DNA of 64,000 bases from Planctomycetota bacterium. GTDB lineage: Bacteria; Planctomycetota; Phycisphaerae; WQYP01. Both the position numbers and the translations under genes were made by a program. Of the stretch, positions 2,001 to 64,000 are shown piece after piece. The DNA lies in the NCBI GenBank assembly GCA_021818445.1, contig JAKAEB010000002.1, positions 1-64,000 on the forward strand, in the 5' to 3' direction. The notes beneath the pieces are model-generated. The model saw nothing but the letters and a program-made list of their open reading frames with translations. It was not told where the DNA came from and ran no database searches. How positions within the stretch are numbered: position 1 is the stretch's first letter; each line of letters starts with the position of its first letter.

Positions 2001-3038
2001 ATGAGCAGTCATCCGAATATTGCAGTTGTTGGTGCCACCGGTGCGGTGGGAGTCGAATTTTTACACCTGATTGAAAGCCGAAAATTTTTGTTTGGTTCGC
2101 TCCGGTTGCTTGCCTCGTCACGCTCCAGCGGCAAGACGATGTCGTGCGGTAATCGGTCGTTCAGGGTGGAATCCCTTGATGAAAACAGTTTTGACGGTGT
2201 GGACATAGCCTTTTTTTCCGCCGGTGGTGGCATCAGCAAAAGGTTTGCGCCGATCGCCGCTCAAAAAGGATGTGTGGTTATCGATAACAGCTCGGCGTTT
2301 CGCATGGATCCGAATGTTCCGCTGGTTATTCCGGAAATCAATCCTGAAGCGGCACTGTCGCACCGGGGAATTATTGCCAACCCGAATTGCTCCACCATTA
2401 TCGCGCTCGTGCCGTTGTGGCCTTTGCACAGGCACAATCGCATTCGCCGTATCATTGCAGCTACGTATCAGGCTGCCAGCGGGGGTGGTGCGGCCGCCAT
2501 GCAGGAGTTGCTGGATGCCACGCGGGCATACCTTGATGGGAAAGACCATAAGCCCACAGTACTCCCCCACCCGTATGCTTTTAATCTATTCAGTCATAAC
2601 GCGGCCGTTGATCCTGCGACGCTTTACAACGAAGAGGAACTCAAGATGGTGCGTGAGGCACGCAAAATATTTAATGATCCGGAGATGCGCATCTCCGCTA
2701 CATGCGTGCGGGTACCCGTCCTGCGAGCCCACTGCGAAGCACTGAATGTGGAATTTACCGATCCAATTTCCCCGTCGCAGGTGCATGCCTGGCTGGAAGG
2801 TCAACCGGGTGTGCGGGTGGTGGATGATGCGGGGAGGAACTATTTTCCAATGCCACGGGAAGCATCTGGACAGGATGACGTGCTGATCGGTCGCATACGT
2901 CAGGATATAAGCGATCCATCGGGCCGTTCCATCGCCATGTTCGTATCCGGCGATCAATTGCTGAAGGGGGCCGCGCTCAACGGTATACAGATTGCCGAGC
3001 TTCTGGTTAAAAATGGTTTGGGTGTGGCGGCCGCCTGA
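2001..3038 (+). CDS. asd: Aspartate-semialdehyde dehydrogenase
   Basis: This enzyme reduces beta-aspartyl phosphate to aspartate semialdehyde with NADPH, the branch point to lysine/diaminopimelate, threonine and methionine, in the cytoplasm. The 345-residue protein begins with a Rossmann motif (AVVGATGAVGVEFLHLI). The catalytic cysteine is Cys130 in NPNCSTI, followed by the AASGGGAAAMQEL substrate loop and the late RVPVLRAHCEALNVEF block where homologues have RVPVxxGHxxxxxVE. The length is normal. An AAGG about 13 bases upstream supports the ATG at 2001. It heads a run of touching genes with truA and a glycosyltransferase. An alanine occupies the place where many homologues have the glycine of GHSE, which is a mild oddity. 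Confidence 0.93.
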   Translation: MSSHPNIAVVGATGAVGVEFLHLIESRKFLFGSLRLLASSRSSGKTMSCGNRSFRVESLDENSFDGVDIAFFSAGGGISKRFAPIAAQKGCVVIDNSSAFRMDPNVPLVIPEINPEAALSHRGIIANPNCSTIIALVPLWPLHRHNRIRRIIAATYQAASGGGAAAMQELLDATRAYLDGKDHKPTVLPHPYAFNLFSHNAAVDPATLYNEEELKMVREARKIFNDPEMRISATCVRVPVLRAHCEALNVEFTDPISPSQVHAWLEGQPGVRVVDDAGRNYFPMPREASGQDDVLIGRIRQDISDPSGRSIAMFVSGDQLLKGAALNGIQIAELLVKNGLGVAAA

Positions 3039-53970: not shown

Positions 53971-55056
53971 TCATTCGCCATTCGGATCGATAAACACACG
54001 TGGGAACTGGGAGGGTGTTACTGCCGCGGCATGGCCATCTAAAAAGCCAACGTTTATGTGATTTCCATGGCGATTAAAACCAAGCCCTGTGTTGTTATCT
54101 CCCTTCGGCAGGGGCAGATAATTGGGGGACATGGGAATACGATCGCGAAGGGCCGCGTTGTCAGCCACTGCCTGTAACGTGCAGATATTGACGGATGCAG
54201 GAAGACCGGCGGCAAAGTTGTATGCCGTGGTGTAATACGTTTCATCGCAATAGAAAAGCCCATTACCACCTTGCGCATCGGTGCCACCCGGATTCGGACG
54301 AACTCCGCAGTCAGCAAACATAAGCGTCTGCTGCGGATCGCGAATGCCGCCCAGAGTGCATCCCCATGATGCAGTGCCACCAGCTTTTGATTGCGAACCG
54401 GCTGGAATCTGAAAGGCCCAGCCGGGATTGAAAGCACCGTATGAACCATTGTATTTGGCCGATGCAATATCAGCATTTATGCCATAGGAGACCGGGTAAT
54501 AACCTTGGAAGTTGCCGGGATAGCCCGATGGTTTCGTTTGCTGGGACGTCGATGTAATGGCCACGTTATTAAACAATTGGTACCCCGGGTCGGTATCAGT
54601 GATAGATGGATCAGAGGGGCATTCAAATACTTTGGCTCCGGCTCCATGGGCACCGAAGTTCAGAAAAGTCTGGTCGGGCTCACCGCCCAGATAGGGAACC
54701 AATGCACTCGCCCAGTCATCAAGCACTGAATATCCCTGCGGCACGTAAGTGTTGGTCTGCGGGTTATAGAGCGTTGAACGATAGGCAAACATGGTGTGGT
54801 TGGTGTCCGGCGTCTCGGTGTATTGCATGATGCTGCTGTCGGTATCGGGCTGGACGAAATTTTTATGTGCATCGGCGAACTCGATCTCGGCGGTGAGTAT
54901 CTGCCTGACATTCGACAGGCAAACGGTTGATGCCGCCTGCTCACGGGCTTTTGCCAACGCCGGCAGCAGAATAGCTATCAGCAATGCGATGATGGATATT
55001 ACCACCAGCAATTCAATGAGTGTAAAACCACTTGTTTTTCTTTGAATGCGTAACAT
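53971..55056 (-). CDS. Pseudopilin-like protein (type II secretion-like, H-X9-DG type)
   Basis: The 361-residue protein has a class III prepilin leader: a short basic stretch [10 protein letters not shown], cleavage after Gly, then [20 protein letters not shown], with Glu at position 5 of the mature chain. Such proteins with a large C-terminal domain ending in a [14 protein letters not shown] motif are abundant in planctomycetes. They are thought to be surface or secretion-system filaments subunits. The start at 55056 is chosen because AAGGGG is 6 bases upstream, while the ATG at 55062 overlaps that site. It is the last gene of the alpha-glucan operon, 13 bases after the amylase. Confidence 0.88.
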
Positions 55057-55069
55057 AGGCATCCCCTTA

Positions 55070-58039
55070 TTAAAGTGTAACCTTCACATACTTTTTGCGC
55101 CATCGACGACCTCCTGTCGCCAATGAAAAGAGTCCAGATATAAGCAGTGACAGGGATTCCGGCTCCGGCGTAGGAATAATATTCGCGCTATTGGAGCTGA
55201 TCAAACCGTATTGTCCCAGTAACTGGTTATAGGCAGCCATGGTTGTGCTGCTGGCACCGTGTGCCAATAATGTCTGGCCGAATGGAATCAGATCCTGAGG
55301 GGTGATAACCCCCGTTCCAAAATAATCCGCCGCCGGGTTAAACTGTGTGTTTTTACCAGCGAGCAAATTGGCAAAGGCATTTACATCCGCCGTGTCATAC
55401 TGCCCATTGAACAGCAAATCACCCAATCCTTGCCCAAAGATGGTTGACGTGTATAGCCCGGCTATGCGCTGGATGTTGTAGGTTCCATCGGGTTTATAAC
55501 TGACGATGGTTGCTACATGATTACCGCTTGTTAAACCGGTGATGTCAATCTGCCATTGATTCACATCGGTTTGAGTCGCCTGATTCGAATTGCCGATCAT
55601 GGAAAGGATTTGTGAGGCAGTGTCGGCTGCAGGCAGGTCAAAAAGGACGTGCACATTGTTGGCCAGGCCGTCCGCCGAGATTGATTGCACAATCAACTGG
55701 CGATTTTGATTGACACCGTGCACCACCGGATTAAAGCTCATGATGGTGGATTGGGGCAGTGTGGTGTCCACATATACGCTTTGCGCCCAGTCCGTATAAA
55801 CTGGTGGAGCATCGACTCCAGTCCGGGCACGAAACGCAATGACCGAGATATAGTTGTACCCTTGCGGCAGATCGCTGGTGTTGATCGTTTCGGTATATAG
55901 CCCAGTGCCACCCCCCACCAATGGACTGGCATTCTGAAATTCCAAATAGCCGTAACCTGTCGAATTGGGCTGTGTACTGACAAAACTTTGCCCATTGACC
56001 GCCACCCCGGCGTTGATCTTAAATATGGCGTTATTACCGCCGGCATTTGGGTCGTAGAGACTGTTGTTGCCCAGCAGGTAAACCGGCTTGGTTTGAAGCT
56101 GAATTTGAAACTCCGAACCTTTAATCACCGCTACATTTGTCACGGTGTTGGCACCATTATCAACGACGATATTTTGATCCGACGTTGTTGGTGCCGTGCC
56201 GGGAATCTCACCGGCGGCATTGGTGACCGTCATGGTACCGATCGGAGTCGGCGGGCCGTAAATCAGATAGCCTTGACCCGTGACTTGGCCGGCACTGTTG
56301 CTGTTATTGGGAAACGTTACATTGACCGTGCCATCCTGATTTACCCGCAACACTTGAGGCAACGCACCATTTGATGCAGCCGCATTACCCGTAAGTTCAA
56401 CCAGGTACGGGACATTTGCAGGATTAAAGCTGGTTTGGATCGTCGTGCTTAAATTTCCTCCGCCGGTTTGATTATTCAGCAGCACAACTGCCGAGTCCTG
56501 CCGCTCAAAGGCATAATTATTCTGACTCACATACCGATTAATGACATTACCGGTGCTGTACCGGTTGCGTATGTCCACAAGCCCGCTGACCTGGTTCAAA
56601 TGGGTTACCGCCATCGTCTGCGCGGCTGCATCGTATGATGCAAGCGAATTATTGGCCAGAATATTTCCGTATACTCCGCCAAGGGCATCTCCCCGACCGT
56701 TCTGTGGAAACGATTGGGTGCCATTATCGAATGCCGTCTGATTACCGTTGTAATAAACAATAGCCTGTCCCGGCATCATCAAGGTGTAGGCGTAGGCCAC
56801 GTTGCTCAGATAGGGTGCTCCGTTGTCCTGGCTTTGTACAAAGCTCACCCCACCGTTATTTACCAGGTATGAGGCGCTGATGACATTATTCCAATTATTG
56901 GTAAAACCATCGCCCGTCAAATTGCTCTGGAGAGCAAAAAACAGCGGAAAATTCAAAGCATTCAGATTGGCGGCGGGATCAATCGGATCCCCAGCCCCCT
57001 GCGGGATGGTGCTGTTGTAATACTCTCCGAATGAGTAAACCTGTTCCTGTTGGCCATTGAGATAGCGGTGCGTGCTGGCACCGGTCACCGCCTGATTAAA
57101 GTAGGGCAATATGGTTGGCCATTCCATATTTTTTACGGCATCGAGGCGAAATCCGTCAACACCCAGGTTCTGCACAAACCATTGAACATTGTCCATCATA
57201 TAGCCGGTGTCATTCTGCAGCGTAGGTGATCCACCCTGTGGATTGGCGGTATTAAACGAGTTGACATTGATGCCGGTTTGCCCTGTGTCGGGATTGGTAA
57301 TTGTGTAAGGATTATATCCCGGTTGGGGATAAAACTGCTGATTGGCAGGCATAGGCACATTGGCGATGCGGCCAAACGCAGGTTGTGTTCCACCTGGTAT
57401 GTTAGCAGAGTTTCCCGGTGTGGTTGGTATCCGGATATATTGATAATTCTCGTTGTAGTTGATGTTAATTAATCCCGCCAGTTGTCCGGTCTGTGTGCCG
57501 GTATCACTGGGGTTATTAAAATCTCCATAGGGATTACCCGGTGTACTGAGGGTAAAGCCCGGATATCCACCCGCCTCGGCAAAGGTTGAGCCATTACCGT
57601 CGGTCGTGCCAAAACTTGAAAAACCATTGTGGCCCAATGAATAGTCGGTATAGAAATACCCACCCATCTGATGGATGGTATTGATAAGCGATTCATACCC
57701 CTGCAGCGTGCCGTAGGCAGTTGGATCATTAGCCGATCCCAAATCAAAGCGGTTGTAGACATCGTATCCAACGGACGCATTGCCGCTATCTGCACGCGTC
57801 GGTGGTGGTGTCAGCAATGAACCATAACCGGCTCCAAAGATGTCGGGTGCGCGATTGATTATGTTCTGCCACGGCCCACCAAAATAGTCCAGAATTGCCC
57901 CGGGAGAATAGGCTTGGCCCTGCGCCCAAACCGAGGCCCCGGACAAACTCATCGCCATTGAAGCGGCGATGACAGATCGTCTCATCAGCCAACGGCCGAC
58001 CGCCGGTGCTAATTGATGGTTGCGCGCCTTCCGGCTCAT
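55070..58039 (-). CDS. GH13-family amylase-like protein with PEP-CTERM anchor
   Basis: A 989-residue exported protein. A signal peptide ([20 protein letters not shown]) leads into a GH13 barrel. Region I is [10 protein letters not shown], region [14 protein letters not shown] with nucleophile Asp300, region [11 protein letters not shown] with Glu339, and region [12 protein letters not shown] with Asp405; the histidine usual before that Asp is Gln. Beta domains follow, then a dockerin-like segment ([22 protein letters not shown]). The C-terminus is [27 protein letters not shown] written here in parts: PEP motif, hydrophobic span, basic tail. This tags it for exosortase sorting to the surface. 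Its ATG overlaps the stop of the preceding gene. Confidence 0.88.
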
Positions 58040-59019
58040 CCGACGCCCCCTTGCCGATAATTTAACTTGCGAGCAGTCTTTTTCATCAGGCCCAACCCCG
58101 GTATGAGCATCAAGCCAAGCATCAGCCCAAGCGACGTCGGCTCCGGTGTAGAGACAGGGTCGGTGATATTTATATTGTTAAAATAATCGGCCTGATAGTT
58201 GGAACCAAGATTGTCATTAAAAAGGGCAAGTTGATTAATCGGCAGATTATTGATAGTCAACGATGAGAAAGTCTGCCCCTGAACCGCCGTATTCAAAGGC
58301 GTGAGCGTTACCGAAGCGGTATTTGAATTTCCAATCGTTACGGTCACTTCCAGGCCATTGCCATTGTTACCGCCTGCGCTTCCATCGTGCACCGAGGAAA
58401 TGGTGCTCGATACGCTGTTGGCGAACCCCGGAACTGACGTTGTGTATCCGCCCCAGCTCACACTGTAATCGCTGCCGCTGGCGAAAGCGGCAACTTCCAA
58501 GATCGGAGTGGCATAATTGGTACTGGGATCATAATTCTGAAGTTGAAAACCCTCAGCACCTTGAGTGCCGATGGCATCAGTTGTCATATCGACGGAAAAG
58601 GTCGCGCCAGGAACTAAGGCATAATTAAATTTGCGATAGGCTGTCTGCGCGACCGGATCCGTGCCGGTGGCATTTTGCGACCAAAGTGTCCACGCGACGC
58701 CATTACTGTCGATATTTGGGCTGGCCGTGACACCGAAAACGTTGGCGGCGGATTCCGTATCAAACCCCCATGTTGCGGATTGATTGACGCCCGACTGCGC
58801 CACATCCGGCACCAATTGCCATGGCGCAAAACCGCTGCCACCATTGGAGCCAGTTGTCCACATGCCGTTGGCGTACGCGGTATTGGAGGCCTGATCAGAA
58901 AAGCTCACAGCGCCGCGAGCGGCGCTGTGAGCCTCGGCAAAACCAATCAAGATTAAGCTTGCGGCTGTTATCAGCACCCGCTTTTTGGGGCCAACCGCTC
59001 TTTTTATTTTTTGCGACAT
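58036..59019 (-). CDS. PEP-CTERM protein of unknown function (second gene of operon)
   Basis: The 327-residue exported protein starts KKRVLITAASLILIGFAEAH, a signal peptide, and ends STPEPTSLGLMLGLMLIPGL followed by basic residues, a PEP-CTERM sorting signal. The mature part is Gly/Ser/Asn-rich and probably a beta sandwich; it includes SNTAYANGMWTTGSNGGSGF, which resembles a stretch near the start of the upstream PEP-CTERM protein (TNGGTGFGAWNIV). No catalytic motif was seen; a glucan-binding or structural role is possible. GGAAGG upstream sets the start at 59019. A terminator-like hairpin lies inside its first 120 bases. Confidence 0.82.
   Translation of the reverse strand: MSQKIKRAVGPKKRVLITAASLILIGFAEAHSAARGAVSFSDQASNTAYANGMWTTGSNGGSGFAPWQLVPDVAQSGVNQSATWGFDTESAANVFGVTASPNIDSNGVAWTLWSQNATGTDPVAQTAYRKFNYALVPGATFSVDMTTDAIGTQGAEGFQLQNYDPSTNYATPILEVAAFASGSDYSVSWGGYTTSVPGFANSVSSTISSVHDGSAGGNNGNGLEVTVTIGNSNTASVTLTPLNTAVQGQTFSSLTINNLPINQLALFNDNLGSNYQADYFNNINITDPVSTPEPTSLGLMLGLMLIPGLGLMKKTARKLNYRQGGVG
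58896..58932 (-). promoter_or_regulatory. Terminator-like hairpin inside the PEP-CTERM gene
   Basis: A perfect 14-bp inverted repeat, GCTCACAGCGCCGC with GCGGCGCTGTGAGC, separated by 2 bases (58903-58932). On the coding (minus) strand it is followed by TTTTCTGA. It begins 87 bases downstream of the ATG and encodes the end of the signal peptide (EAHSAARGAVSF). This is stronger than needed for coding and could cause premature termination or a translational pause. Confidence 0.5.
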
Positions 59020-59088
59020 ACAACCTTCCAAATAAAAAGCTCGATGGCCAGAACCAGCAGGCAGTGATCCAGCCGCTGCCATTGGAAA

Positions 59089-60024
59089 CTAGACGGATTT
59101 TCGACGACGGGAGAGCAAAAGCCCTCCAGCAGCAACGCCAAGCAATGCAAACGACGCCGGTTCAGGCGTCTCAGCCGCCGATATCTCCATCTGATTGGCC
59201 TGCAAATTTGCATTGGTGGCCGATTCGATGATGTCGGCAGCGTTGATCGATCCGCTGATCGTACCCGAGTAAATCAGTGGGCTGGTGAGCAAGGTATTGC
59301 CATTCGCCGGTGCCAAGGTCAACGTGTAGCTATTATTCGCGCCAAGCGTAAAGGAGGCTTCTATGCCGGCTTCAATTTGCGACTCGTCAAGGGCGTTGGT
59401 TCCAGGCTGGTTGTATGCAGCCGATGTGTACGTCTGAGTACCGTTCGCATCGATAATGGTGGTGATGAGCGAATATGGGCTGCTTGCCCCCTGACCAAAC
59501 GTAACGGAAAACGCCGGTGTGTATGTTCCATTGGAAACTGTATCCAAACTGAACCCGGCTGCAACACCCGTTGCCCCACCCAAGCCGTCCTTCCCCGTCT
59601 GAACTTCCAGACCCAAGCTAAATTCCTGCCCCGGTCGCAACGTGCCAATGCCCGTTCCCAAAGAATTCTCAAAGGGGCGGTAGGCATTGACGCTGGGGAT
59701 TGCCGTGCTCGAACCGCCATTTGCGTAAAGGCCCCAGTAGCCACCGTTGCTGCTGGCGATATTCACGCCGGTATTGTTTCCGAGAAAGGTACCCGCATAG
59801 GGCGGATTAGTGTTATTGGCCACGACAATGTTCCACGCGCCAAACCCGGTCCCGCCGTTGGTTGGATTGGGGGTGGCCCCAAAAGAGGAGTAATTGCCTG
59901 CATTGTCGCTGGCAATCATGGCGGCGTGCACAGTGGTTGCGGAACCAATACACGTCGCAGCGACGACGGCAGCCGTCAGGCTGGCAGCCGATACAAAGAA
60001 ACCTTTTGACTTGACGGATCGCAT
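59089..60024 (-). CDS. PEP-CTERM protein of unknown function (first gene of operon)
   Basis: The 311-residue exported protein has a signal peptide (SKGFFVSAASLTAAVVAATC) and the C-terminal sorting signal ETPEPASFALLGVAAGGLLL followed by SRRRKSV. The mature part is rich in Gly, Asn, Thr and Ser with many short beta strands and no catalytic motif. It is the promoter-proximal gene of the operon and shares its early TNGGTGFGAWNIV segment with the second gene. It may be an abundant surface or carbohydrate-binding protein. The leader of about 80 bases begins just downstream of a LacI-type operator. Confidence 0.85.
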   Translation of the reverse strand: MRSVKSKGFFVSAASLTAAVVAATCIGSATTVHAAMIASDNAGNYSSFGATPNPTNGGTGFGAWNIVVANNTNPPYAGTFLGNNTGVNIASSNGGYWGLYANGGSSTAIPSVNAYRPFENSLGTGIGTLRPGQEFSLGLEVQTGKDGLGGATGVAAGFSLDTVSNGTYTPAFSVTFGQGASSPYSLITTIIDANGTQTYTSAAYNQPGTNALDESQIEAGIEASFTLGANNSYTLTLAPANGNTLLTSPLIYSGTISGSINAADIIESATNANLQANQMEISAAETPEPASFALLGVAAGGLLLSRRRKSV

Positions 60025-60111
60025 GGGAGTTTCTCCTAAAAAAAAGGACCGACTACAAAAACACGATGCAAAGACATTGCGCGAGGCTTGATCACCTCAC
60101 TCACGCCCTAT

Positions 60112-60129
60112 AGTTTAACCGGTTAAACT
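60112..60129. promoter_or_regulatory. LacI-type operator upstream of the PEP-CTERM/amylase operon
   Basis: AGTTTAACCGGTTAAACT is a perfect 18-bp palindrome with the central CG typical of LacI-family operators. It covers the -10 box and most of the spacer of the leftward promoter, so bound repressor would block RNA polymerase. The half-site GTTAAAC recurs in the promoter of the lacI-type gene. Confidence 0.8.
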
Positions 60130-60139
60130 TATATGTCAA
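60112..60139 (-). promoter_or_regulatory. Sigma-70 promoter of the PEP-CTERM/amylase operon
   Basis: On the minus strand a perfect TTGACA (60139-60134) is followed after 16 bases by TAAACT (60117-60112). The start of transcription is expected near 60105, about 80 bases before the ATG at 60024. The boxes and the spacing are identical to those of the divergent regulator promoter. Confidence 0.7.
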
Positions 60140-60297
60140 GTGGCAATGCCATTTTTTTTTTTACATCCTTCAATCGCTGTCATTCGCGGCATATTTTCAC
60201 TTTTATCTGACGTTTTTAAGGCATTTTAGCCAATTTTGCATGATTGCCAGTACCAGTTTCTGGCTCCTTCGACCTGTCAACTGAGCATTTGCTTAGG

Positions 60298-60325
60298 TTG
60301 ACATTGTTAAACTGTGTGGTAAACT
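60298..60325 (+). promoter_or_regulatory. Sigma-70 promoter of the LacI-family regulator gene
   Basis: A perfect TTGACA (60298-60303) is followed after 16 bases by TAAACT (60320-60325). The predicted start near 60332 gives a leader of about 120 bases before the ATG at 60452. GTTAAAC and GGTAAAC repeats overlap it. Confidence 0.7.
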
Positions 60326-60334
60326 GTTTTAACA
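60305..60334. promoter_or_regulatory. Operator-like repeats in the regulator promoter
   Basis: TGTTAAACTGTG and TGGTAAACTGTT are direct repeats of the half-site found in the palindrome at 60112, and the second forms an inverted repeat ACTGTT-TT-AACAGT with the following bases. They overlap the -10 box, so the regulator probably represses its own gene. Confidence 0.6.
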
Positions 60335-60451
60335 GTGTCGGGTCGCCGTTGGATTTCAGCGGCGATTGATCCGCCAATGGCGATATGCTTTGCTCGAGCT
60401 CACTCGTATGGTGGTTTGGAACGGAAGTTTGTTTATCTGAGGCAATTGTTT

Positions 60452-61618
60452 ATGCCTGAAAAATTCAACGTCCGACGACGCGAATATCCGATAACCATCA
60501 AAATGGATAACGACCAGGCCGACGCCGCACCCGCTGATTCAGTAAATGCAGGATCAGAAACCGTTTGTACTGTGAGCTACCCACTCGGAAAGCCACCGGA
60601 CAAAGTCAATATTCGAGATGTGGCGGGTCAAGCTGGCGTTTCGGTGGCAACCGTCTCCATGGTTATCAACAATAACCCCCGCATCAGCCGCACAACTCAA
60701 GGTAAGGTGCAGCGTGTGATTCAACAGTTGGGTTACCGTCCCAGCCGCCCCGCACAAACCCTATCGGGAAAATACACGCAAGTTATAGCGGTATTGCTCC
60801 CCGCCCTTCGGCACGCGCTGGCTGATGCCTACTTCGGAGAGCTGCTTAGCGGTATTGCCGATCGCGCCGGAAAGCTTAACCATAAAATCATCATTGAGCA
60901 GGCGAAGCCGCAATATGTAAAAGACAACAGGCACATCGATCTTTTTGAGCGAAAATTTGTCGACGGCTTTCTCTGCCTCGGCTTTAATGATAAGCACCAC
61001 ATGCTGGCCGATTTTGCCGAAAGGCAGTATCCCGTCATCATGGTGGATAACCGCTACACCGAGCATAAGCTCGATTGGATACATTGCGATTATCGCCAGG
61101 GTGCCGAGCAAGCCATGAACTGCCTTATTCAACTCGGTCATCGTAGAATTGCCATCATCTACGCCGCACCAGAAAGCGCCACCGCCCGCGATGTGATGGA
61201 TGTTTACAGACGCAGGATGCATGATTTGGAGAGCGGCGTAAATGAAACATGGATGGCAGACGGAATGTTCACGGCCGAAGGCGGAGCGGCCGCCGCTGAC
61301 AAATTGTGGTCCGCAGACCCAAACATCACAGCCATCCTTTGCGGCAATGATAAAATGGCGATCGGTGCCATGCACGCTTTGGCAGCACATGGCATTCGCG
61401 TGCCCCAGGATGTATCGATTGTGGGTTTTGATGATATCCAGCATTTGCCTTTCATCAGCCCAAGTCTGACCACGGTTCATCTACCGCTCTATGAACTGGG
61501 TGCATTGGCGGTCGAGCGGCTAGTTGAACGTACCCACAATAAACTGCCGCGTGTCGGCGAAGTGGTCCCTACACATCTGGTGCTCCGCGAGTCCACCAGC
61601 ATCGTGCGGACACACTGA
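60452..61618 (+). CDS. LacI-family transcriptional regulator
   Basis: A 388-residue repressor-type regulator. After an N-terminal extension of about 50 residues it has the LacI HTH and hinge (VNIRDVAGQAGVSVATVSMV, INNNPRISRTTQGKV), then a periplasmic-binding-protein-like sensor domain with AVLLPALRHALADAYFGELL, FDDIQHLPFISPSLTTVHLP and the usual ending. A ligand would be a sugar, here probably a maltodextrin. The ATG at 60452 has GAGG about 9 bases upstream; the frame extends back to GTG 60335 but that lies at the predicted transcription start. It is divergent from the PEP-CTERM/amylase operon and followed by a CBM48-GH13 gene. Confidence 0.9.
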   Translation: MPEKFNVRRREYPITIKMDNDQADAAPADSVNAGSETVCTVSYPLGKPPDKVNIRDVAGQAGVSVATVSMVINNNPRISRTTQGKVQRVIQQLGYRPSRPAQTLSGKYTQVIAVLLPALRHALADAYFGELLSGIADRAGKLNHKIIIEQAKPQYVKDNRHIDLFERKFVDGFLCLGFNDKHHMLADFAERQYPVIMVDNRYTEHKLDWIHCDYRQGAEQAMNCLIQLGHRRIAIIYAAPESATARDVMDVYRRRMHDLESGVNETWMADGMFTAEGGAAAADKLWSADPNITAILCGNDKMAIGAMHALAAHGIRVPQDVSIVGFDDIQHLPFISPSLTTVHLPLYELGALAVERLVERTHNKLPRVGEVVPTHLVLRESTSIVRTH

Positions 61619-61691
61619 TTCCATTTGAATGACAGCAGGTTCGGATGCCGCGATTGTCGCCGTCCGCACTTTGAGACTTATTAGGGAATTT

Positions 61692-64000
61692 ATGGCTATG
61701 ACCAATGCTGGATCAATAATACGTTCCTGTATGCGGGCGGCTACCGTTGTAATGCTCGTTGTACCTCTATGCACCGAATCAACGGCACCTGGGCTTTCTG
61801 CCGCCACGGCCCCAGTTGGGACATTACATTCGATACCCACTCGTATCGTCCATCGCTTTGTGTATGCTTCATCTTCCCCGGCCGGATCTATTCGTCATGT
61901 TTATATCGCCGGCGACTTTAATAACTGGAGCCCGACAAGAACGCCCATGCAAAAAATCTCCGCCGGCCATTGGGCGATCACCATGAAGCTAACACCAGGT
62001 ATCCACTATTATAAATTCGTTATTAATGGTACTCAGTGGACACCAGACCCACGATCCAACCCTCACTTTTCCGTGCCGGATGGCAATGGGGGCATCAACA
62101 GTGGTGTCAAAATTGACTCGGCCTGGCAGAAAATGCCTGCGCCGCGAGCTAATGTGGTCCCGACGAATGAACTGGCATTTTCGCGCCATAACGCCATTTA
62201 TTATGATGTGGTCAACCACCATGAATTGCGCTTAAGCCTGCGGGCGCGATCGGGTGCCCTGACGCGGGCGGCCGTCACCATCCGGTCGGCGGGCCCATGG
62301 GTTCGGCATGAACTGCGGCCCGAAGTTACACATGAGGGAGCGACGCTTTATGGAAACCTTATTACGAGGCTCGGTGCCCCTGCGCATTTTTATTTCAAGC
62401 TTACGCATGGCCGGCAATCCCTGTATCTGGCGAATAACCGGTTTTATCTTTCCCGCGCCGCCGCCCGCAGTCATGCATATCAGTCAAAGTTACGCCCGCT
62501 GATTATTACCCCGCGCTGGGCGCATCATGCGGTCTGGTATGAAATATTTCCAGAGCGATTTTTCAATGGCAACAAAAGTAACGATCCCTCGCCGCATATT
62601 CCGTGGCGCTGGTCGTGGTTTAAGCCGTACCGGCCAGCGGGTGAACATGGAAATTTTTACAGCTACGTGTTCAACCGATTTTTTGGCGGAGATATTCAAG
62701 GGATCGGCGATAAGCTCGGCTATCTCCAGCAATTGGGCGTCAATACACTTTATCTTACGCCGATTTTTGTCTCGCCCAGCATTCACAAATATGATCCGTG
62801 GGACTATCGCCATGTGGATGACGGTTTTGGCGTAAAAGGTTCGCTGAAACTGCTTAAAGGCGAGCGTATTCGAAACCCGGCCACGTGGCAGTGGTCAAAG
62901 TCGGACAAGGTATTTCTACATTTTGTAAAGCAGGCCCATCAACGTCATTTCAAGGTCGTATTGGACGTTCCCTTCGGACATTGCGGCGTCGGCTTTGGCC
63001 CCTTTCAGAATGTACTCAAATATGGTCGCAAGTCGCCTTATGCCGGCTGGTTCCAAATCGTTAAATGGTCACCACATATTGTGTATCGCTCCTGGGGAGG
63101 CCTCAACGGCGACATGCCCAATTTCCGGCACTATCGCAAAACCGGCTTGGCACCGGGCCTGTGCCGCTACTTTTTTGCCGTTACCCGGCGTTGGATGGCA
63201 CCGAACGGAAAGGTGGCCAATGGAATCGACGGGTGGCGCGTGGACTCAGCACAGACTGTGCCGCACGCCTTTTGGATCGCATGGCGCAAGGTCGTCAAGT
63301 CCATCAACCCACATGCTGTCATCATCGGCGAAATTTGGCCACCGGCTCAGTCGTATCTGAACAAAGGCAATCAATTTGATGGTGTAATGAACTATCCTTT
63401 CGCCACCATTTGCACGCAATTTTTCGCCGATCGTCGTGGTAATGGTGGCGTTGGCATTGGCCCAAAGCATTTCGGTCTCAAGCTTTCTCAAATGCTGAAC
63501 TGGTATTCATGGCAGACGGACCTTACACAGCAAAATTTGCTCGATAGTCAGGATACCGATCGCTTTGTTTCACGAATTGTTAACCTGAATTTGCCGTTCA
63601 ACGCAGACGATCGCCTGCAAAGTAATCCTGATTACAGTTCCGCCAAACCAACTCCCTACCAATACCGGCGGTTTGAGCAGGTGGTGGCGTTTCAGATGTC
63701 ATTCGTCGGCGCGCCGATGATCTGGTACGGCGATGAGGTGGGCATGTGGGGCGCAAGTGATCCTTCCGATCGTCAGCCTATGGTATGGAAGAGTTTAGAA
63801 CCTTACAACGATCCGCAGGTGACCGTCAATGAATCGTTATTGAAGTTCTACCGCCGTGCTATCGCGATGCGTCGGCAACTGCCGGCCCTGCAGACGGGTG
63901 ATTATGGCGAATTACTCGCTGCATCCAGCAAAGATGTATTCGCCTTCTATCGCAGCCTTGACGGCTCTCGAGTTTATGTCGTGCTTAACCGCAGTGCCCA
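61692..64000 (+). CDS. GH13 alpha-amylase/neopullulanase-like protein with CBM48, C-terminus beyond window
   Basis: An exported alpha-glucan hydrolase, open through the right edge (769 residues seen). A signal peptide (CMRAATVVMLVVPLCTES) precedes a glycogen-binding CBM48 domain near 57-140 (VYIAGDFNNWSPT, YYKFVINGTQWTPDP). A second beta domain spans about 150-270. The barrel begins AVWYEIFPERFFNGN. Region I is VLDVPFGH, region II GWRVDSAQ with nucleophile Asp518, region III IIGEIW with acid/base Glu547, region IV LLDSQDTDR with Asp621, where Gln again replaces the usual His. Like neopullulanases it should cleave maltodextrins or pullulan. It lies 73 bases after the regulator gene, in the same direction. 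AGGGA precedes the ATG. Confidence 0.9.
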   Translation, partial: MAMTNAGSIIRSCMRAATVVMLVVPLCTESTAPGLSAATAPVGTLHSIPTRIVHRFVYASSSPAGSIRHVYIAGDFNNWSPTRTPMQKISAGHWAITMKLTPGIHYYKFVINGTQWTPDPRSNPHFSVPDGNGGINSGVKIDSAWQKMPAPRANVVPTNELAFSRHNAIYYDVVNHHELRLSLRARSGALTRAAVTIRSAGPWVRHELRPEVTHEGATLYGNLITRLGAPAHFYFKLTHGRQSLYLANNRFYLSRAAARSHAYQSKLRPLIITPRWAHHAVWYEIFPERFFNGNKSNDPSPHIPWRWSWFKPYRPAGEHGNFYSYVFNRFFGGDIQGIGDKLGYLQQLGVNTLYLTPIFVSPSIHKYDPWDYRHVDDGFGVKGSLKLLKGERIRNPATWQWSKSDKVFLHFVKQAHQRHFKVVLDVPFGHCGVGFGPFQNVLKYGRKSPYAGWFQIVKWSPHIVYRSWGGLNGDMPNFRHYRKTGLAPGLCRYFFAVTRRWMAPNGKVANGIDGWRVDSAQTVPHAFWIAWRKVVKSINPHAVIIGEIWPPAQSYLNKGNQFDGVMNYPFATICTQFFADRRGNGGVGIGPKHFGLKLSQMLNWYSWQTDLTQQNLLDSQDTDRFVSRIVNLNLPFNADDRLQSNPDYSSAKPTPYQYRRFEQVVAFQMSFVGAPMIWYGDEVGMWGASDPSDRQPMVWKSLEPYNDPQVTVNESLLKFYRRAIAMRRQLPALQTGDYGELLAASSKDVFAFYRSLDGSRVYVVLNRSA

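Follow-up and report, generated by a model that had tools for sequence, protein, structure and literature searches.

A putative LacI-family control region between the two arms of a divergent alpha-glucan locus in Phycisphaerae

Background

We studied a gap (60025-60451) in a 64,000-bp stretch of DNA from a bacterium of the class Phycisphaerae (the window), which separates a leftward operon for PEP-CTERM proteins and an amylase from a rightward gene of the LacI family. An earlier note on this DNA had proposed that one LacI-type regulator acts in both directions from the gap, on the operon and on its own gene. Our results indicate that the gap is very probably where a divergent alpha-glucan locus is controlled by an autoregulated LacI-family repressor, a reading built on the sequence, its conservation, the co-occurrence of the genes and the retention of the site on separate contigs. 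The comparison covered 28 genomes of the window's family and 270 others of the class. The relatives were Phycisphaerae or Planctomycetota metagenome assemblies and, being kin genomes, are not independent samples.

Gene organization of the divergent locus

The genes flanking the gap were as follows.

59089..60024, minus strand: operon gene 1, PEP-CTERM protein (PF07589, TIGR02595)
58036..59082, minus strand: operon gene 2, secreted protein with a PEP-CTERM-like tail (tail read from the sequence)
55070..58039, minus strand: operon gene 3, GH13-type alpha-amylase with a PEP-CTERM-like tail; D300, E339 and D405 invariant
53971..55062, minus strand: operon gene 4, pseudopilin-like protein (DUF1559-type), with its own O1-type promoter in genus g2
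60455..61618, plus strand: LacI-family regulator, ATG start probable; LacI HTH and Peripla_BP_3, helix VSVATVSM
61629..64000 and beyond the window end, plus strand: secreted GH13 enzyme, neopullulanase/maltogenic-amylase-like, 10 bp after lacI, probably co-transcribed

The score of the first operon gene against PF07589, 20.7 bits, just equalled the cut-off (20.7), and against TIGR02595 it reached 22.5 bits with a cut-off of 16; the second gave no Pfam or NCBIfam match. Pfam gave a weak match for the operon amylase, but when nine orthologues were combined in a profile it matched alpha-amylases of known structure (E 5.7e-20), and the catalytic triad of the enzyme was unchanged in the orthologues. 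The best PDB relatives of the GH13 enzyme downstream of lacI were neopullulanase/alpha-amylase II (1bvz). The description of the leftward genes as a surface operon, made in the earlier note, is to be taken as a prediction from the PEP-CTERM sequence and the one exosortase gene of the genome (PF09721, 177 bits, contig C106), and not as a result of localisation.

Promoters and palindrome in the gap

The gap contained two predicted promoters and a palindrome.

60134..60139, minus strand: -35 box TTGACA of the operon promoter, unchanged in 30 of 31 related sites
60112..60117, minus strand: -10 box TAAACT of the operon promoter, within the right half of O1
60112..60129, no strand: putative operator O1, perfect 18-bp palindrome AGTTTAACCGGTTAAACT, consensus site of the regulon (from sequence and conservation)
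60298..60303, plus strand: -35 box TTGACA of the lacI promoter, TTGAC in 19 of 19 family lacI genes
60320..60325, plus strand: -10 box TAAACT of the lacI promoter, within the left half of O2 (see below)

Direct reading bore out the two divergent promoters that had been proposed: a 16-base spacer separates TTGACA (60139-60134) from TAAACT (60117-60112) on the minus strand, and the lacI promoter has a spacer of the same length on the plus strand. The arrangement TTGACA-N15-18-TAAACT occurred just twice on both strands of the 64-kb window, both times in this gap. TAAACT agrees with TATAAT at four of six positions, and both promoters are predicted from sequence. The perfect palindrome reported over one of them was found as well: AGTTTAACCGGTTAAACT fills 60112-60129, so that the operon -10 box lies inside its right half, and its centre is CG.

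Even with as many as 3 mismatches allowed, the window had no further match to the O1 palindrome (0.00 in shuffles). Perfect 18-bp palindromes of any sequence numbered two, at 2680 and 60112; palindromicity by itself is therefore near chance and was dropped as evidence. The other one, CGGAGATGCGCATCTCCG at 2680-2697, lies inside a coding gene (2001-3038) and is probably fortuitous. In the sequences compared, it is conservation, not palindromicity, that is decisive in raising O1 above chance.

Conservation of the promoter-operator

Of the 19 family genomes that carry the operon, 18 had an O1-type site 5' of the first PEP-CTERM gene. The remaining one, G006, is 53% complete with fragmentary contigs and had no site near its operon fragment. 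The LacI orthologue and the amylase gene were each found in 19 of the 28 family genomes: both in 18, neither in 8, and one of the pair in each of G026 and G027, which are incomplete genomes (Fisher p=2.5e-5, phylogeny ignored). Where both genes are kept, the setting in which the earlier note expected the palindrome to be conserved, the site was found in 17 of 18 genomes, the exception again being G006, and the proposal thus withstood the refuting condition set for it. The 8 family genomes with neither gene had no site at up to 2 mismatches, and most family genomes without this LacI orthologue carry other LacI paralogues.

Thirty-one sites were found at operon-type genes. In 30 of them an exact TTGACA stands 16-17 bases from an operator-embedded TAAACT or TAAATT, the latter replacing TAAACT in two; the sole exception, without TTGACA, was the G005 site beside a PEP1-like gene. 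The combined promoter-operator pattern gave 20 matches in 14 of the 28 family genomes; the 270 others of the class had none, and the reversed control likewise gave zero. O1-type conservation spans at least five genera. The site goes with the operon and is not part of a conserved lacI block, as genus g3 shows: its operon and its lacI gene occupy different contigs, and the operon still has the site. Outside the family, the weak sites of G043, G048 contig 36 and G090 contig 18 were compatible with chance. The weak site on G090 contig 18 stands at a pullulanase gene.

Mismatches were unevenly distributed within the operator: 14 sites had 2 mismatches to GGTTAAACT in the half containing the -10 box versus 17 in the other half (binomial p=7e-4), as expected where the same bases serve as half-site and promoter element. 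The suggestion that repressor and polymerase compete for these shared bases gains support from this asymmetry. The predicted promoter-operator module is near-invariant, and is confined to one family among the genomes searched.

The lacI promoter and a second operator

Two further elements were recognized at the lacI promoter.

60318..60333, no strand: putative autoregulatory operator O2, degenerate dyad GGTAAACTGTTTTAAC, downstream arm conserved
60306..60312, plus strand: extra half-site GTTAAAC in the promoter spacer, GTT columns conserved

All 19 family lacI genes presented TTGAC-N16/17-TAAACT followed by the conserved arm, and the TTG of the -35 box, 16 bases and TAAACT were kept in 7 of 8 lacI orthologues from other families. 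TAAACT was found in 18 of 18 aligned lacI orthologues; the alignment was anchored on TAAACT, so the hexamer is not independent evidence there. The anchor did not select the downstream TTTTA arm, with up to 1.9 bits against flanks of 0.0-0.3 bits, nor the GTT of the spacer half-site (0.5, 1.3 and 1.9 bits), which keeps a fixed distance from the -35 box. No partner half-site was identified for GTTAAAC at 60306-60312. The lacI side had been described as direct and inverted copies of a half-site; GTTAAAC is indeed present, but the last two copies form a degenerate full-length dyad of O1 geometry, i.e., 8+8 around a central YG step, which is TG in O2 and CG in O1. The dyad has the form GNTAAA-CTGT-TTTANC and is recognizable in further families. 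Its arms vary symmetrically in several genomes, with the pairs GGTAAA/TTTACC in G050, GCTAAA/TTTAGC in G096 and GTTAAA/TTTAAC in G048. The double role of TAAACT as -10 box and half-site, proposed for this locus, is conserved at both promoters.

Scored with the O1 matrix (PWM), the structural-gene sites of the family reached 21-32 bits and the lacI-side sites -2.5 to 13.4 bits; the window genome gave 32.0 bits for O1 and 5.9 for O2, and O2 of G003 gave -2.5. A better site on the structural genes and a poorer one on lacI, as first suggested from this locus, is therefore a conserved pattern of site quality. Because O2 scores low, the predicted binding of the same protein there rests on its position, symmetry and conservation. 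The partner half-site lies upstream of the -10 box at the operon promoter and downstream of it, towards +1, at the lacI promoter, which probably also drives the GH13 gene 10 bp 3' of lacI.

The low score of O2 in the window genome (just 5.9 bits) and its TG centre instead of CG would fit a different explanation, in which LacI does bind at O1, while the dyad on the lacI side consists mainly of a promoter plus another element and lacI is not autoregulated. We consider this unlikely, since the downstream arm is conserved across several families although it falls beyond every promoter element, the arms covary, and autoregulation holds for more than three-fourths of local LacI regulators (PMC4052901).

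The regulator

The product of the lacI gene matched the LacI HTH (PF00356, E 2.4e-17) and PF13377 (E 1.4e-33), both over the cut-off. It has the hinge A-x-x-L (RPAQTLS), in agreement with the CG-centred O1. In NCBIfam the best score was for RbsR (226 bits, cut-off 382), with 196 of 442 bits for CcpA and 154 of 310 for MalI; the identities MalR/MalI, RbsR and CcpA were rejected since the scores stayed below these cut-offs. By these models the protein is a LacI orthologue group outside the NCBIfam regulator models. Arg at AA-20 has been tied to G at operator position NT-6, and AA-15/16 to positions 5 and 4 (Camas et al., PMC2978694). Here AA-20 is Met, in all family orthologues but that of G006 (Leu), together with T at NT-6, and AA-15/16 are Val-Ala together with TA at positions 5 and 4. 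The protein-DNA fit is consistent with the proposed pairing, as a check short of proof.

With about 14 matches to the LacI family in the window genome, and with O2 differing from O1, a different paralogue could occupy O1, the adjoining lacI being coincidental. This seems improbable to us. The orthologue tracks the operon (18 genomes with both, 8 with neither), three genomes with other LacI matches and without this orthologue have no site (G010 with 19 matches, G001 with 4 and G017 with 10), and sites are also found in the control region of this very lacI gene.

Extent of the regulon

In the 3.7-Mb genome of the window no second 16-mer matched the O1 palindrome at up to 2 mismatches, and at 3 mismatches there were 13 matches versus 52 for the reversed control. 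As far as sequence matches can tell, the regulon appears confined in this genome to the divergon. The compact, one-regulator regulon put forward in the earlier note would therefore hold for this genome, with the correction that the lacI promoter probably drives the GH13 gene in addition to lacI; a search for the palindrome elsewhere, which that note had advised, gave nothing in the rest of the genome at up to 2 mismatches and a promoter-operator preceding GH31 in G007. Relatives enlarge the membership, with the promoter-operator at a pseudopilin gene, at GH31 and at a propeller gene. GH31 (50774) as an operator-controlled gene in the window's own genus was rejected, there being no site 5' of it in G000, G002 and G003.

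The pseudopilin-like gene of genus g2 stands behind a TTGACA-operator promoter of its own, equal to O1 in quality (L067 13978, L091 13628 and L092 13354), which would be regulatory evidence tying a DUF1559-type protein to alpha-glucan use. Genus g2 also has a second complete promoter-operator, AGTTTAATCGGTTAAACT, which lies 5' of the first at a distance of about 250 bp and in the same orientation (L066 10089, L067 8467, L091 8112 and L092 7857). These double promoters may be tandem regulated promoters, or there may be an unannotated small gene in between. G020 carries the same promoter-operator (L065 7452) at a gene for an 868-aa protein with two-component-regulator propeller repeats, possibly an extra regulon member. 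Downstream of lacI, sister families carry GH13, in some cases pullulanase, and a MalE/MalF/MalG-like transporter. There, a single product of ~780-800 residues apparently combines the solute-binding protein of the sugar transporter with one of its permeases (L076 12678-15005, L085 11551-13899 and L088 12893-15289).

Proposed regulation and its meaning

In the preferred reading, with the inducer absent, a LacI dimer on O1 would cover the spacer and -10 box of the operon promoter and shut out polymerase. The same protein on the weaker O2, over its own -10 box, would set how strongly lacI and the GH13 gene behind it are expressed, TAAACT doubling as -10 box and half-site at both promoters. A breakdown product of alpha-glucan, e.g., maltose or maltodextrin, would free the repressor and induce both operons. 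The inducer is suggested by the genes: the genes that follow lacI in sister families, with the MalE/MalF/MalG-like transporter among them, favour maltodextrins, and nothing in the data points to trehalose. Being further from consensus, O2 should release first.

Some LacI-family members activate, and the regulator might do so at one of the promoters; this is very improbable here, with both dyads over the -10 box, a polymerase-blocking position, and a consensus-like -35 box kept at both promoters. A chance palindrome with chance promoter matches, for which the unrelated perfect 18-bp palindrome at 2680 might speak, is refuted by conservation over at least five genera, the zero matches of the reversed control and 0 of 270 genomes outside the family.

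More speculatively, and with less chance of being right than of being wrong, the O1-type promoter-operator could mark a dedicated alpha-glucan surface module of an uncultured family of Phycisphaerae, made up of two PEP-CTERM proteins, a PEP-CTERM amylase and the pseudopilin-like protein. On this view the pseudopilin would take an active part in capturing or exporting polysaccharide instead of being a generic pilus protein. Since the two dyads have opposite polarity, induction would be staged, enzyme and regulator first and surface module second. Through the common regulation predicted here, PEP-CTERM proteins would be tied to the use of alpha-glucan, and so would a pseudopilin of the DUF1559 type. 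The locus also offers a directly testable putative LacI operator in Phycisphaerae, whose phylum is absent from the main text of the LacI regulon survey (PMC4052901), and a ready probe, O1, for regulon searches in a family represented here by metagenome assemblies.

Comparison with known systems

The circuit type is already known: control of the regulator's own gene and of a neighbouring operon is the rule for most local LacI regulators (PMC4052901). The present regulator shares with such repressors (PMC4052901; PMC2978694) the LacI HTH and periplasmic-binding fold, the hinge A-x-x-L, a palindromic CG-centred operator, the predicted control of a divergent operon and its own promoter, and sugar-catabolic targets. 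It differs in the recognition helix, TVSM here and mostly TVSR there, in having PEP-CTERM proteins and a pseudopilin among its targets, and in the -10 hexamer that doubles as half-site at both promoters. The locus belongs to Phycisphaerae, and the term Planctomyc* occurs 0 times in the main text of the survey (PMC4052901). No relevant paper turned up when the literature was searched for the operator string.

MalR-type repressors, as in the mal regulon of Streptococcus pneumoniae (PMC4451989), likewise exert LacI-family control over alpha-glucan enzymes. The alpha-glucan targets here are GH13 genes and, in some relatives, GH31, assigned by operator position only. A further likeness is the gene cluster of sister families, with GH13, pullulanase and the MalE/MalF/MalG-like transporter; the cluster of the window genome differs in having no adjacent transporter. 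With no NCBIfam equivalog at cut-off, the regulator is not classifiable as MalR.

The closest solved structure to the regulator is CcpA (E 1.9e-51). CcpA is a global regulator that requires a corepressor protein; the regulon described here is one locus. GalR, like the present regulator, combines Val-Ala at its two specificity positions with TA in the corresponding part of the half-site. Local LacI control of self and neighbouring operon is thus a familiar arrangement, and what is less ordinary is the membership of a pseudopilin, a conserved dual-use hexamer at both promoters and a near-invariant module restricted to one family among the genomes searched.
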